Assembly (NCBI GenBank): GCA_004764695.1 | Contig: SMSO01000032.1 | Coordinates: 5,455,483 to 5,519,482 of the forward strand | Reading direction: 5' to 3' | Origin: Schizochytrium sp. TIO01 | Lineage: Eukaryota; Sar; Bigyra; Thraustochytrida; Thraustochytriidae | Length of the DNA: 64,000 nt | Shown: one piece after another, positions 26,601 to 33,869 of the stretch | Position numbering within the stretch: the first letter of the stretch is position 1 | Layout: the number at the start of each line of letters is the position of its first letter | Notes under the pieces: model-generated | The model's input: the letters and a program-made list of their open reading frames with translations, nothing else | What the model was told of the DNA's origin: nothing | Databases searched by the model: none | Position numbers and translations under genes: made by a program

Positions 26601-29540
26601 TGTCAAATTTTCGCTGCAACGAGAAGGTGTTGAGATCGAAAGGCTTATTCAGGCCTTTAGCACGGATGTTCCCGATATACCCAGGAGGTCTTTAGCTCGT
26701 TTCCAGTAAGTTCATGGACTATCTTCATTGCAAGTTATTCGCGATGATGAATGCTCTGTATTTATACGCCTCTCAGCCAATGTTAGGAGAAGGGCGCATA
26801 GAGAATTTACAGCACTTTTGCGCAATCAGGGCATCCTTTTTATTTTATATTGGACGTCTTAGCGATGGAGATCCTAATTGCCAGGACGATGAATGCGATC
26901 CCTTCTTTAAATCTCAGCACGAGCAGTACATCGGTTACGCAATTAGGTTATGAAACGATATGTTGCAGTTACAATGTGGGACGAGCTATCCAACCCCATG
27001 CGGTTTTTGTTTCTTGAGGAATCGTATCGAGCTTGTTTTAGCCCTTCTATTGCATTGTGAGCACAGAAGACTTGTACTTCACTGGTGAGGAGATTCGCTC
27101 GGGCAACCTGGGTCATGTGACCTAGAACGATATGCCGAGACCAGTCTGTTCAAGTCGATTTTTTTGATTTATTTTTTAAAACAATTTTAATACCTATGTA
27201 GACCTACTTCGGATGGTTTCTCAGCTGCTCGATACCGCCGGTTGCAACGCATTGTCTTGTTCTAGGCTAGAGCGTCATATTGCATGTTTACCTTCGAGAA
27301 CTCTGCGGGTACAGTCTGGCTGACTGTGTCAGCCTCAATATTGTCCATGAAGTAATCGGAGTTTTACTTTAACATGACGTTCTCAGAACATGTCTTATGA
27401 GCATGATAGCATATGATTTACACCTCTCTCCAGCAATGCGATGGCAAAGAGGTCCGAGAAAGCGCTACGCTCAGAAAGCGATGGTACAACGAATGGCAGA
27501 ACGACGAAGTTGTGAGTGCTTATGGATCTGGGTTTCCTCGTATTACGACTCTCTGTTCACCACCATGATTGCTGTTCACGGTCTCACCTCAGCGCAGCAA
27601 CTCGCAAGCAAAGTAGACCAAGTGAAATTCCTGTGTGACTCTTGCTTTTGTTGCTGGCAGTGTTCACGGTTTTACATCTTGCCACGTCATCCCTAGCAGA
27701 CATCTCCCGTTCGCTTGCATGGGCTCATCATCATCGATGAGTGCTTTGTCACCATCTAGCAGGTCAAAGTGCTGGCAGCGGTGTCGAGATGTGCTTTCTG
27801 TGCTGTACAAGACCAACCAATCGCACAAAGCAAATTGCAAGATCATAATCTAAAATAAGCATCTCTAACTAAAGCAGTAACTAGTGATTGCTCTGCACCT
27901 GAAAAAGTCCCGTGGCAACTGCTGATGACTTGCCAAATCTCCCGATCGAGCTCCTTGCGAACTCCAAAGCAAAGCCTAAGAAGATGCGATTGTTGTATAT
28001 ACATACACGCATCACATAGTTGAATTAAGGTTAGGCATCCAAGTTTCACATTGTGCTGCAATGGCATATTTTAGACACTCTCATAATGTAGTTCATCGTC
28101 ACAGTGTCATTGGACGCACTTCGCTCTCCCACATACATTCTAAAGCGTCCATAACTGCACAAACACAGCGGTAACTGCATCCTCCAAAGCCCTCTTCAAC
28201 CTCACGTCAATGCAAGAATAGCAATAGTAGTGAGTTCACGAAAGTTTATACAAGTTCAAGTTGGTTTTCACCTCCTGCTGAGGCGTCATATATCAATACA
28301 TACGCTTAGAAGCGCATTTCTTACGACTCTTAGTGTTTAGGACAGTAGGCCTAGGACCCGCGAATTCACCAACCGAGTCCGATGTGACCACCAATAAACC
28401 CCCTGGAACTGCCTACAAGTAACATGGATTTCACATATCGCGTATACTATATTCATAATAATCTGTATTTATCTGTACTATGCAATTAATGTTCTGTTCC
28501 CAAATGCGAGCTTTGGGACTGTAGTGGAGAAAAGCAGAGGAAAACAAGGAATGGGAACTTGCTAGGAAATGAGAAAAGTTAAAATCGAAGAAGGGTTAGT
28601 CACTGCTATGTGAGCGCCTAGCAAGCAAAAATGTTTAAAGCCTTATGGGTAGCAGCACATAGCACTAGGATACGTACGGGTACCTCTAAGGAAATGAAGG
28701 AAATGAAGAGTCGAAGAAACGTGGGGAAAGTATGAATGAATATGGGAAATGAATGAGTGAATGAGTGAATGAATGAATGAAGGAATGAATGTGATCAAAG
28801 TCGGCAGCAAATCCCAATCAAATTGGCGGAGAAAGGTCTCGAGCAAACCAGGTACGTTTGGGACGTTTGGGACGGGAGGAGAGAGGGAATGCACACGGTT
28901 CTTGTGCTGATCAGCGTTCGTAGACCCTGGGATTCACGAAAGCTGCCGGTGCTGGTCTTGGTTTCTTTCTTTCATCGATGGTGCACGCTGAGGTCTAGTT
29001 CATGGTGCTTTTTTGTTATGTTGGTTTTGTTGTTTCTGAAGGACGTATAATATGGGCGTAACACCAGCGTCTCAAGAATTACACGAGGCGATGGAAGAGG
29101 GAGCGGAGACTCGATTATATTTAAGCGCACGTGAAAGGAACTCGGACCGGGGTCTCGCCATGTTGTTGTTTTCATAAGCATTGCATACATTGATAATAAG
29201 GAGGTAGGTAGGCCTACCATGAAGCTCTAATCAACTGAAAGCAAGATGGCCCATCAACAGAGACCGCACACAAAAGAAAAACAATGTAGGGCACACTGGG
29301 GCGGCGAGGTGGCGAATATACATACGAGGGGCATCATGTACTCCTGGGGACGTTCAGTATGTATGATCGAGACACGTAAAAGCATGAAAACTGACGGTAA
29401 ATTACTGTTGTTTGGGTTTTATTTATTTATTTATTTATTTATTTATTGAATTCATGAATGAATGGAATTACTTGCGGACGGATAGAAAGTCACACGAGTA
29501 AGTGCTTCATTCAAACATAAGGACAAACATCGAGGTCAAC
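26601..29540. other. Gene-poor spacer upstream of the H3 variant
   Basis: No supported gene. Short frames at 26714-26953 and 27397-27696 lack starts, motifs or splice support. A GAATGAATGAGT tetranucleotide array lies at about 28747-28791 and a TTTA run at about 29415-29447. The latter sits 95 bases before the H3 start codon, within its likely promoter or leader. Confidence 0.45.
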
Positions 29541-29960
29541 ATGGCACGAACGAAGCAGACTGCTCATAAGTGGGTTGGCGCAAAAGCCCCTCGGATGCAA
29601 ACTATGCTTGTAAGTCCCCTCAAACACAACCTTGAGGGAGGTGTGCGAAAGGACGAAGAATACTACTGTGGCAACAATGTAGTCGTGTGCAGTGATAGCC
29701 ATAGCGCAATGTCTTCAGACTTTTTGATTCGCAGACGCGCCTTCAAACGCATTATCCGCGTGCTTATGGAACGCTACACCCATGATGAGGACATGAAATT
29801 CCAAGGAAATGCCGTTTTGGCTATTCAAGAAGCCACAGAAGACTACCTCATCGGTCTTTTTGAAGATGCAAATTTGTGTGCTCTCGCAGACAAGCGCGAA
29901 ACAATTCAACCCAAAGATATTCAGCTGGCACGTCGCATCCGTGGGGACCCTTGCTGGTAA
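29541..29960 (+). CDS. Divergent histone H3 variant
   Basis: ATG 29541 opens a 139-residue intronless frame; the frame extends upstream only through a TTG. The first eight residues, MARTKQTA, equal canonical H3, so K4 is kept; K9 and the GAKAPR segment around K14 are also recognisable. Beyond that the tail diverges: the ARKS motif around K27 is gone, and the alpha-N segment is replaced by a Cys/Ser-rich stretch (VVVCSDSHSAMSSD). The histone fold resumes at LIRRRAFKRI and is well kept at ATEDYLIGLFEDANLCAL and IQPKDIQLARRIRG, ending DPCW instead of ERA. Loop 1 has the ordinary length, which argues against a CENP-A-type centromeric variant. The GGV(R/K)K signature stays in register, so the divergent part is exon and not an unspliced intron. 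Confidence 0.9.
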   Translation: MARTKQTAHKWVGAKAPRMQTMLVSPLKHNLEGGVRKDEEYYCGNNVVVCSDSHSAMSSDFLIRRRAFKRIIRVLMERYTHDEDMKFQGNAVLAIQEATEDYLIGLFEDANLCALADKRETIQPKDIQLARRIRGDPCW

Positions 29961-31719: not shown

Positions 31720-33012
31720 CTAAGGATTCGTAGACCGCATACGGAGACCAGCTCGAGTAGCTATCATCTTAACTTGCTTTTCGGTCTGTATGGAGTGACC
31801 CGTAAACCAAGTTTTTACAAATATTTCTCCAGGTCGACGCTCTTCTCCTCTGCGTTTACCCATCTTGCAGTATTTGTCTGGGTTTGGCTCATAGCTTGTC
31901 AGTACGACATGACTTTGGACGATATATTGATTTTTAATTTGACCATCACCATGTTGACTCTTTTTTAGAACAGTCCATGCTTCTCCGACTGGTGTTACAT
32001 ACCTAAGATACGAACGAATATGTTCAATTCGTTTCTGAGTTCTACTGTGGAGCGTGGAGAGATCCGATGACCAAGCCTGTGTTCTTCTAATGTAAACATG
32101 TCTTGTGCTTTTGTCCATTTTGCTATGGTCGCATTCTGCAACATTCTTTGTGGCACTCTCGATAGTACTTTGATCTTTAGACTCGTGCTCTAAAATATCC
32201 TGATTCTTTTCTTTGTAATGGGCTAGTTCGCATTTGGGGTTTTTGATTCTGGCTTTAGCCCTCTTAGTTGATCGGCACGGACTAGGCTTTCTTTTCACCC
32301 CTGTTGTATTGCATGCTTGTTGTTTCGGAGAGCTCTCTAGAACATCATTGTTGCCAGATGCAATGCACTTGAAAAGATCCAATGCTTTCTTCGCACTCGC
32401 GCGCCTTGGTCGGCCCGAAGGCACTTCTATATTATCACTAACATGTGACTGAAGAGACGACAATCGGCCATTGTCACTACAGCCTTGGGTGTTATGAATG
32501 ACTCTAACCAGATCTCTTGATTTTACCTCATCACATGCATCATCTTGGCTGCCGAAGTGTGGAATCTGTTGACTATGCTCTGGATTGGTTTTCCTATCAA
32601 CTTCAGGGGGGCATTCTTCATTGCTTTGGGGAGGCAGCGTGTGTTTAGATCTCCATTCCTCATGGCGATTGTAAAAAAATTGCAAAGCGCACGAGAAATT
32701 GTCTGGGAGAAGAATTTGCAAATACGCGGTAAGTTGGCTTACTTCGTGAAAATTCATTGCAGCGGTCTCTTTATTGGCCCCAACTTTGTCAGGATGGCAC
32801 AAACGCAAACATAATCTACGAAACCTGCCTTTGCTCTGAAGTGACTGGTATATAGTTTTTTTAAGCTGCTCTTTTCCTAGAATATCCACAAGCTTCTTGA
32901 TGCGCAGTTGGATCTGATTCTCCATGCGCAAGGTGCTTGTCGTAACTGGTGTGTTTTCATATTGAGATAGGACACTCGCCCTAGCCTTGCAGTCACTCTT
33001 ACTCTGCAGCAT
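31720..33012 (-). CDS. J-domain-like nuclear protein
   Basis: The frame is open from about 33160 to 31720 without an ATG until 33012, which I use as start (430 residues); an upstream exon supplying an earlier start is possible. Near residue 73 the protein has CHPDKVGANKETAAMNFHEV, which fits helix II-HPD-helix III of a DnaJ domain, the part that stimulates Hsp70 ATPase. The usual YxxLG helix I is weak. The middle is polar and basic with nuclear-localisation-like clusters (GRPRRASAKK, KRKPSPCRSTKRAKARIK). The C-terminal about 130 residues are more ordered, with Y and W residues (RHVYIRRTQAWSSDL, ILVKTWFTG-like). A co-chaperone or clathrin-uncoating-type role cannot be inferred beyond the HPD motif. 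Confidence 0.65.
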   Translation of the reverse strand: MLQSKSDCKARASVLSQYENTPVTTSTLRMENQIQLRIKKLVDILGKEQLKKTIYQSLQSKGRFRRLCLRLCHPDKVGANKETAAMNFHEVSQLTAYLQILLPDNFSCALQFFYNRHEEWRSKHTLPPQSNEECPPEVDRKTNPEHSQQIPHFGSQDDACDEVKSRDLVRVIHNTQGCSDNGRLSSLQSHVSDNIEVPSGRPRRASAKKALDLFKCIASGNNDVLESSPKQQACNTTGVKRKPSPCRSTKRAKARIKNPKCELAHYKEKNQDILEHESKDQSTIESATKNVAECDHSKMDKSTRHVYIRRTQAWSSDLSTLHSRTQKRIEHIRSYLRYVTPVGEAWTVLKKSQHGDGQIKNQYIVQSHVVLTSYEPNPDKYCKMGKRRGEERRPGEIFVKTWFTGHSIQTEKQVKMIATRAGLRMRSTNP

Positions 33013-33869
33013 GTCCGCCAACTGTTTTGCGTAGGGCTCAACCTTCGCTTTGGGATGAGTGATGGCGAGCCTCACTTGCGTTTGAGGGCACGCGTGGGTT
33101 GTCTGTATTCCCTCAAGGCTGACCTGGACTCCTGACGAGGTTCCCGTCAGATTGGGCTAATCAACCTGTTCTTCTTCTTCTCCTAGTTTAGTCGTGGAAG
33201 GCGCTCGGTTCTATGCTTGCCTTAACGTACTATCGCAAATGAGGTCAGCCTGATCTCAATGCGGTCAGAGTTGTGTAATCTGCCGCACCAAAACATGCTA
33301 TACCTCATCACAGTTTGCGACCCTCATCGCTCTCATTATAATTATTTTAATCACTCATAATATGCTACTCTAGGAAACTATATAGTAATTTTTTTTTAAT
33401 CTTGTTCTAAATGTTCCTTTTGATAATAAAACGCTCTCAATGATTTGGCTTGCAGAGAAAATACTCCGACCGCTCCAGCAGACGACTCCGCCCACCTTCT
33501 GCTCCCTGAGGAGACTCGGACCGACTCTTGTAGCTTAGCATAAACCCGTACCTATAGAACGCTCCATGACAAAATAAAACAGCAACGCTCTCATCCCCCC
33601 AGGCTAGCGGCTCTTATCTAAGTTCTGTTGACCTCAAATAAGTAAACGCAATCAACAAGTTCGCCCAAACAAGAGACGTTTACAGGGTATTCGAGAGAGG
33701 TTCTGCCACAACCTAAGTCGCAGAACCATTGGAGGCATGTAGGCTATGGTGTCCAGTACTCCAACAGCACAAGAAGACCGAGGTTTTATGCTCAAACAAG
33801 CCAGCTCAGGAAAGGCTTCAAGAGCGCTCTCAAAATTGAATGAAGTTCCAAAGGTTCCACTAAGCCTCT
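33013..33869. other. Divergent promoter region
   Basis: This region lies between the J-domain-like gene (minus) and the first coiled-coil gene (plus). The open part upstream of 33012 may be coding or leader. A separate ATG at 33746 opens a 99-codon frame overlapping the next gene in another frame. I treat it as a possible upstream frame, not a gene. Confidence 0.4.

Follow-up and report, generated by a model that had tools for sequence, protein, structure and literature searches.

A histone H3 variant of Schizochytrium sp. TIO01 that combines an H3-type tail tip with cenH3-like sequence marks

The stretch of Schizochytrium sp. TIO01 DNA analysed here (the window, 64,000 nucleotides) encodes, at 29541-29960 of the plus strand, a product of 139 amino acids (the window H3 variant) that joins an unaltered H3 tail tip to several of the marks of centromeric H3 (cenH3). 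Judged from the sequence, this is a real and apparently constrained gene, and its mixture of H3 and cenH3 features is unusual, but the gene belongs to a kind already known. We consider it on balance probable that the gene is a functional, fast-evolved variant of an ordinary H3 gene, whose product would form loose-ended nucleosomes that are K4-competent and K36-refractory, its cenH3-like features being convergent; the sequence features themselves, the purifying-selection pattern and a codon usage unlike that of bulk H3 are the directly observed part of this explanation. Genes for cenH3 are usually identified from a short list of sequence marks. If functional, the window H3 variant shows these marks uncoupled from the tail and would be a natural test of which of them define a centromere and which do no more than loosen the nucleosome.

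The coding sequence is intronless and has no internal stop; it starts at the first in-frame ATG downstream of an in-frame stop at 29499 and ends with TAA at 29958-29960. The product matches the Pfam Histone family (PF00125) with 91 bits and the best PDB H3 chain with an E-value of 1.3e-32 over residues 1-136, and these matches, together with the neutral simulations described below, show that the resemblance is not due to chance. By homology of the histone fold, whose retention an earlier note on this DNA had claimed correctly, the protein belongs to the histone H3 family. It lacks the near-identity to bulk H3 that would be typical of canonical H3 or H3.3: only 67 of 135 residues are identical to H3b, the product of a canonical H3 gene on contig C33 of the same genome, and the variant departs from this type also by two additional residues in loop 1, by the alpha-N helix and by arginine at position 36. 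Identity to H3b is complete in residues 1-8 (8/8) and falls to 14 of 38 columns in the other tail and entry region and to 1 of 12 in alpha-N, with 44 of 79 in the histone fold; the fold is identical at 46 of 79 positions to H3a, the second canonical protein of this genome, and at 39 of 79 to the organism's own cenH3. Insertions in comparison to H3 are found after residue 44 (one), in loop 1 (two) and at the C-terminus (one). The net charge is +3 for the whole protein (H3b: +20) and -3 for residues 37-58 (H3b: +7).

All H3 numbering is from the alignment to the organism's own H3; residues 1-8 include the initiator methionine and thus end at A7. The tip MARTKQTA (29541-29564, plus strand, as are all following features of the gene) is identical to canonical H3, including R2, T3 and K4, as the earlier note had stated. 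The remaining N tail (29565-29645) can be aligned to H3 over the full tail length; it retains K9 and K14, neither mentioned in that note, as well as R17 and a lysine at 27, and carries the substitutions R8H, S10W, K18M, K23V, R26L and S28H. The proposed loss of the K27 ARKS motif is thus half right: the ARKS context has disappeared (R26L, S28H), but the lysine is still aligned at 27. In the segment from K36 to alpha-N (29646-29714) the changes are K36R, P38D, H39E, R40E, R42Y, R49C, R52S, K53H and K56M, with K37 and Y41 unchanged; here, the described losses of K36 and of the alpha-N residues and the gain of cysteine and serine (R49C, R52S) were all confirmed. Within the fold, Gln68 of alpha-1 is replaced by lysine (29745-29747), loop 1 reads THDED and exceeds that of H3 by two residues, both in the PDB alignments shown and in the alignments with the organism's own H3s (29778-29792), and Thr107 is replaced by alanine (29868-29870); all three are changes of the cenH3 type. 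Further substitutions are K79T, H113A, A114D and V117E, while R63, R69, R72, F84, C110, K115, R116, Thr118, K122 and D123 are unchanged. The protein ends in DPCW with a terminal tryptophan (29946-29957), again in agreement with the note.

The same note had described loop 1 as being of normal length and had concluded that the protein is not of the CENP-A type. The length was misjudged and the argument fails, as loop 1 is extended and both Gln68 and Thr107 are lost; loop 1 length calls for measurement, not for judgement by eye. According to the text available for human CENP-A, its loop 1 likewise has two extra residues (PMC7475651). Two sets of cenH3 criteria were taken from the accessible parts of the literature: in one of them, loop 1 has an insertion, tail and fold are both divergent and alpha-1 lacks its glutamine (PMC7052976); in the other, the loop is extended and Gln69, Phe85 and a threonine are missing (PMC4359364). 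The window H3 variant has four of the six marks, namely the loop 1 extension by two residues, Gln68K, Thr107A (position as we read it) and the divergent fold; as its tail tip is of the H3 type and its phenylalanine 84 (85 when counting the methionine) is retained, it cannot be filed as a cenH3. For this count we take the threonine printed as position 118 in the second set to be Thr107; with a literal position 118 this mark would be absent.

A protein search for H3 across the genome (64.06 Mb in 37 contigs, with no match to the light-harvesting family) returned seven places, including the window H3 variant. Canonical H3 genes, which the earlier note had suggested looking for, are present in three copies: two genes on C32 and C34 with 390 of 411 nucleotides identical encode one identical protein (H3a), and the third is the H3b gene. 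A further H3-like variant gene on C33 (H3c; L005, 2569374-2569775, minus strand) has a canonical tail up to about residue 25, followed by NDDSKKPRR, a loop NKDVRF and an extra C-terminal YDK. The genome has its own cenH3 on C13 (L012, near 4115552-4115896, minus strand), a protein of 228 amino acids from the chosen ATG with a long divergent tail. It has Gln68 replaced by alanine, a longer loop 1 containing FRW, Phe84 replaced by tryptophan and Thr107 by alanine, contains the motifs PFARVV and DANLCALHAK and ends in RGD without a hydrophobic tail; its best four PDB matches are Cse4 chains, one of which carries a gene-model name only, with the same sequence. Given this fully marked cenH3, and the H3 tail tip and Phe84 of the window H3 variant, the latter is probably not the main cenH3 of the organism.

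It could instead be a second centromeric H3, that is, a cenH3 paralogue that has kept or regained an H3-type tail and contacts CENP-C/CENP-N-type partners with its loop 1 and DPCW end, perhaps at one life stage; we regard this, the chief alternative, as possible, but doubtful. Besides the loop 1 extension, the losses of Gln68 and Thr107 and the divergent fold, it would account for three sequences common to the organism's cenH3 and the variant, namely DANLCAL, RGD and, ahead of the loop, ERYT, and a CENP-C-type domain is encoded on C34 (40.1 bits; cut-off 29). There is also a precedent for duplication, as Caenorhabditis elegans is described, in the part of the source at hand, to have two cenH3-type genes in one species, HCP-3 and CPAR-1 (PMC4412405). 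It is less easily reconciled with the existing cenH3 on C13, with the retained tail tip and Phe84, and with the alpha-N sequence, which is H3-like in the organism's cenH3 but not in the variant.

Phylogenetic trees point in both directions. The full-length tree (14 rows) does not resolve the position of the variant: in the best tree it groups with the cenH3s at low support (67/31) and on a long branch of 1.6, and AU tests reject neither a grouping with the organism's own cenH3 (p 0.065) nor one with its own H3s (p 0.145). The tree of the histone fold (12 rows) argues against a cenH3 paralogue and places the variant, with weak support, as sister to H3a (88/83) and inside the H3s (86/85); here too, AU tests reject no grouping, be it with the own cenH3 (0.231), with the own H3s (0.373) or with every cenH3 included (0.28). 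Co-diverged fold sites common to the window H3 variant number 7 of 17 for the organism's cenH3, 3 of 14 for Cse4, 3 of 20 for human CENP-A, 1 of 23 for HTR12 and 1 of 25 for CID. The difference between 7/17 and the 8/82 of the four other cenH3s (Fisher p 0.0037; p 0.07 against Cse4 and human CENP-A) fits a relation to cenH3 better than one to H3, in a count that was made post hoc, in which several of the common sites adjoin loop 1 and are partly one block, and for which three of the five cenH3 rows were entered without a database record and one was read off a printed alignment. Taken together, the variant reads as H3-derived and converging on cenH3 features, with an origin from cenH3 as a possibility; the H3 origin is something we infer.

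Several known proteins share part of this combination. With cenH3/CENP-A (the protein on C13, Cse4 and human CENP-A) the variant has in common a loop 1 extended by at least two residues, the loss of the alpha-1 glutamine, a divergent fold and a non-H3 C-terminus, while loss of Thr107 is shared with the organism's cenH3 and human CENP-A and not with Cse4; it differs from all of these by its H3 tail tip, its Phe84 and its placement with H3 in the histone-fold tree. Paradiplonema DIPPA_03805 is, from the text available, likewise H3-like with a longer loop 1 and exists beside a separate CENP-A candidate, but it has retained the alpha-1 glutamine that the variant has lost (PMC11633173). The H3 variants of dinoflagellates (PMC4751559) and Stylonychia (PMC2939574) also mix conserved and divergent tail motifs; the comparison is by description only, and the accessible parts of these papers do not describe the present combination. 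In trypanosome H3V the alpha-1 glutamine is also absent, but in the portion of the source consulted this protein is defined as having a tail that diverges and no insertion in loop 1 (PMC7052976); the window H3 variant has a canonical tail tip and a longer loop 1. Among the papers listed from the open-licence PMC literature, as far as their text was accessible, no description of this feature combination was found; there was none on thraustochytrid histone variants by title, none that joins CENP-A, loop 1 and histone H3 with stramenopiles, none on CENP-C together with a CENP-A tail and, among the titles listed on non-centromeric or duplicated cenH3, none on this combination.

Substitutions in the window H3 variant are consistent with purifying selection. 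In comparison with H3b, pS is 0.83 and pN 0.34, and the identities at the three codon positions are 0.62, 0.68 and 0.34. Neutral simulations (n=4000) to the same amino acid identity, run without indels, under a single mutation model and with H3b as stand-in for the ancestor, accumulated a mean of 3.3 stops; 133 remained open, one was as conservative by BLOSUM62, five retained residues 1-8 and none had both an open frame and residues 1-8. That the gene is a decaying pseudogene is therefore hardly credible: the GC content at third positions is below that of the organism's H3 genes, and a degenerate, stop-containing H3 copy does exist in the same genome, but the frame is open, pS is far above pN and none of the simulations retained both frame and tail tip. 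The degenerate-looking copy in question is an H3 fragment on C24 (L006/L013, near 4151508-4151825) with an internal TAG. Splicing, which the earlier note had named beside pseudogene decay as a way in which its reading could fall, was addressed by removal of candidate GT/GC-AG introns: of 583 pairs, 49 were excluded with a product of 20 amino acids or less, and none of the 534 that were scored improved the match to H3a. A consensus GTAAGT is present inside the coding sequence at 29610, but its best in-frame use lowers the match score to H3a from 301 to 273. As far as sequence allows, neither objection is supported.

On the reading that we prefer, a functional variant of H3 descent, the protein would pair with H4 in a nucleosome with a weak grip on its DNA ends, since basic residues of the entry/exit region and of alpha-N have been lost. 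The available text of PMC7475651 relates the flexible DNA ends of CENP-A nucleosomes to a shorter alpha-N and to weakening at residue 49, and that of the mouse H3mm18 paper relates residue 53 to the same flexibility (PMC8855299); in H3mm18 itself, positions 40 and 53 are among those changed, and the entry/exit DNA is disordered (PMC8855299). The window H3 variant has Glu, Cys and His at 40, 49 and 53, and thus has lost the basic residues at 40 and 53 like H3mm18; by analogy, disordered alpha-N and entry/exit DNA are expected. The likeness is by description only and has limits, as Arg72 is lost in H3mm18 and retained here, and a loop 1 insertion is not mentioned in the accessible part of the source (PMC8855299). 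AlphaFold models, of low confidence (mean pLDDT 53.7 for the variant and 58.8 for H3b, from alignments with the same five genes each), have an alpha-N helix at residues 44-59 in H3b and none in the variant, where the first helix spans residues 59-81. A Foldseek search with the weak model of the variant returned no match at E ≤ 0.001 and no histone among the best 50 listed, and we draw no structural claim from it.

The tip A1-R2-T3-K4 would be available to writers and readers of K4, and the arginine at position 36 would not be methylatable by the SETD2/NSD-like SET protein of this genome. SET matches number 20 in the genome, eight of which were translated and two compared with PDB: a Set1/MLL-like protein has the K4 enzyme KMT2A as best match (1e-47) and the SETD2/NSD-like protein the K36 enzyme SETD2 (5e-42). 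With both proteins encoded, the K4 tip intact and the K36 acceptor replaced, modification at K4 but not at K36 is chemically plausible; this part of the chromatin state envisaged by the earlier note agrees with the sequence. At K27 the lysine itself is still aligned. Searches for the PRC2 VEFS-Box and the Set1 N-SET domain gave no match in this genome and none in the control genomes either, and are thus uninformative; Haspin was marginal (26.8 bits; cut-off 25), and we place no weight on it. The longer loop 1, the losses of Gln68 and Thr107 and the hydrophobic C-terminus would have been acquired in parallel with cenH3 and may expose a non-canonical nucleosome face. Incorporation into nucleosomes, opening of the DNA ends and the modification state are all inferred in this explanation. 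In a bolder version, which we think unlikely, the protein is a hybrid histone with the K4/T3 tail of H3 and a centromere-type face that marks an open-ended, K36-methyl-free domain capable of K4/T3 modification, perhaps at or beside centromeres, alongside the normal cenH3.

Improbable, in our estimate, is a histone-like protein that forms no stable nucleosomes and serves as chaperone-bound H3-H4-like dimer or as decoy for K4 readers. Positions 113, 114 and 117, which we take to be the H3-H3' contact, are all changed (H113A, A114D, V117E), which would weaken this contact, and the low net charge of the whole protein would also fit; but PKDIQLARRIRG matches the organism's own H3 in every residue and a large part of alpha-2 is also conserved, which is what a nucleosomal fold would require.

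The gene also differs from bulk H3 genes in codon usage: GC3 is 0.49 for the window H3 variant and 0.52 for the organism's cenH3, in comparison to 0.68-0.93 for its own H3s. The 8-mer GAGGGAAA was found upstream in five of the seven own histone regions examined and in none of six other window genes; it is absent upstream of the window H3 variant, the cenH3, H3c and one H3a copy. The motif was discovered in the very regions in which it was scored, and these are of unequal length and partly include coding ends; it is therefore a lead only. GC3 and the absence of GAGGGAAA suggest that the window H3 variant is not co-regulated with bulk histones, and its expression may be low or separately regulated. 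Upstream of H3a, H3b and putative H2A/H2B pairs, GAGGGAAA (5/7) and CAGCAAACCC (3/7) may constitute a histone-gene promoter motif. The histone 3' stem-loop of Rfam was not found at or above the gathering score at any of nine histone loci, including that of the window H3 variant. About 115 bases past the stop of the C32 H3 gene, on the same strand (L002, 1337-1383, minus strand), there is a sub-threshold stem-loop match (19.2 of 34 bits, E 0.75) that contains GGTGTTAATCAACACC.

Acquisition of the gene from a virus or from another eukaryote is very improbable. An extended loop 1 is indeed described for the H3 of a giant virus (clandestinovirus, in the available text of PMC9145170), but two scans of viral contigs found no relatives among 8 and 61 pattern stretches, and the neighbours of the gene within the window include ordinary eukaryotic ones. 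The viral scans are weak evidence: neither included a positive control, and the second came back empty as well, with a pattern that also drew on ordinary H3s. A scan of prokaryote genome contigs returned 11 loci that look like eukaryotic contaminants: eight read as standard H3 whose loop 1 is of the usual length (L027-L033, L035) and two match residues 1-20 of the query only (L036, L037), so that neither the viral nor the prokaryote contig scans contained an orthologue of the window H3 variant. The remaining locus (L034), in a public record of a prokaryote metagenome-assembled genome and probably a eukaryotic contaminant too, encodes a two-exon cenH3-like H3 variant with FEDANLCTGHAKR and FEDANLC that ends in RGDKY; its loop 1 lies at the apparent exon junction. 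The genes neighbouring the window H3 variant include a formin, a CH/spectrin/EF-hand protein and HisRS. An open reading frame of 451 amino acids at 31720-33075 (minus strand) has a short J-domain-like stretch with HPDK and no Pfam match, and at 28726-28791 the window carries a short GAATGAAT-type repeat with at least 72 further matches across the genome.
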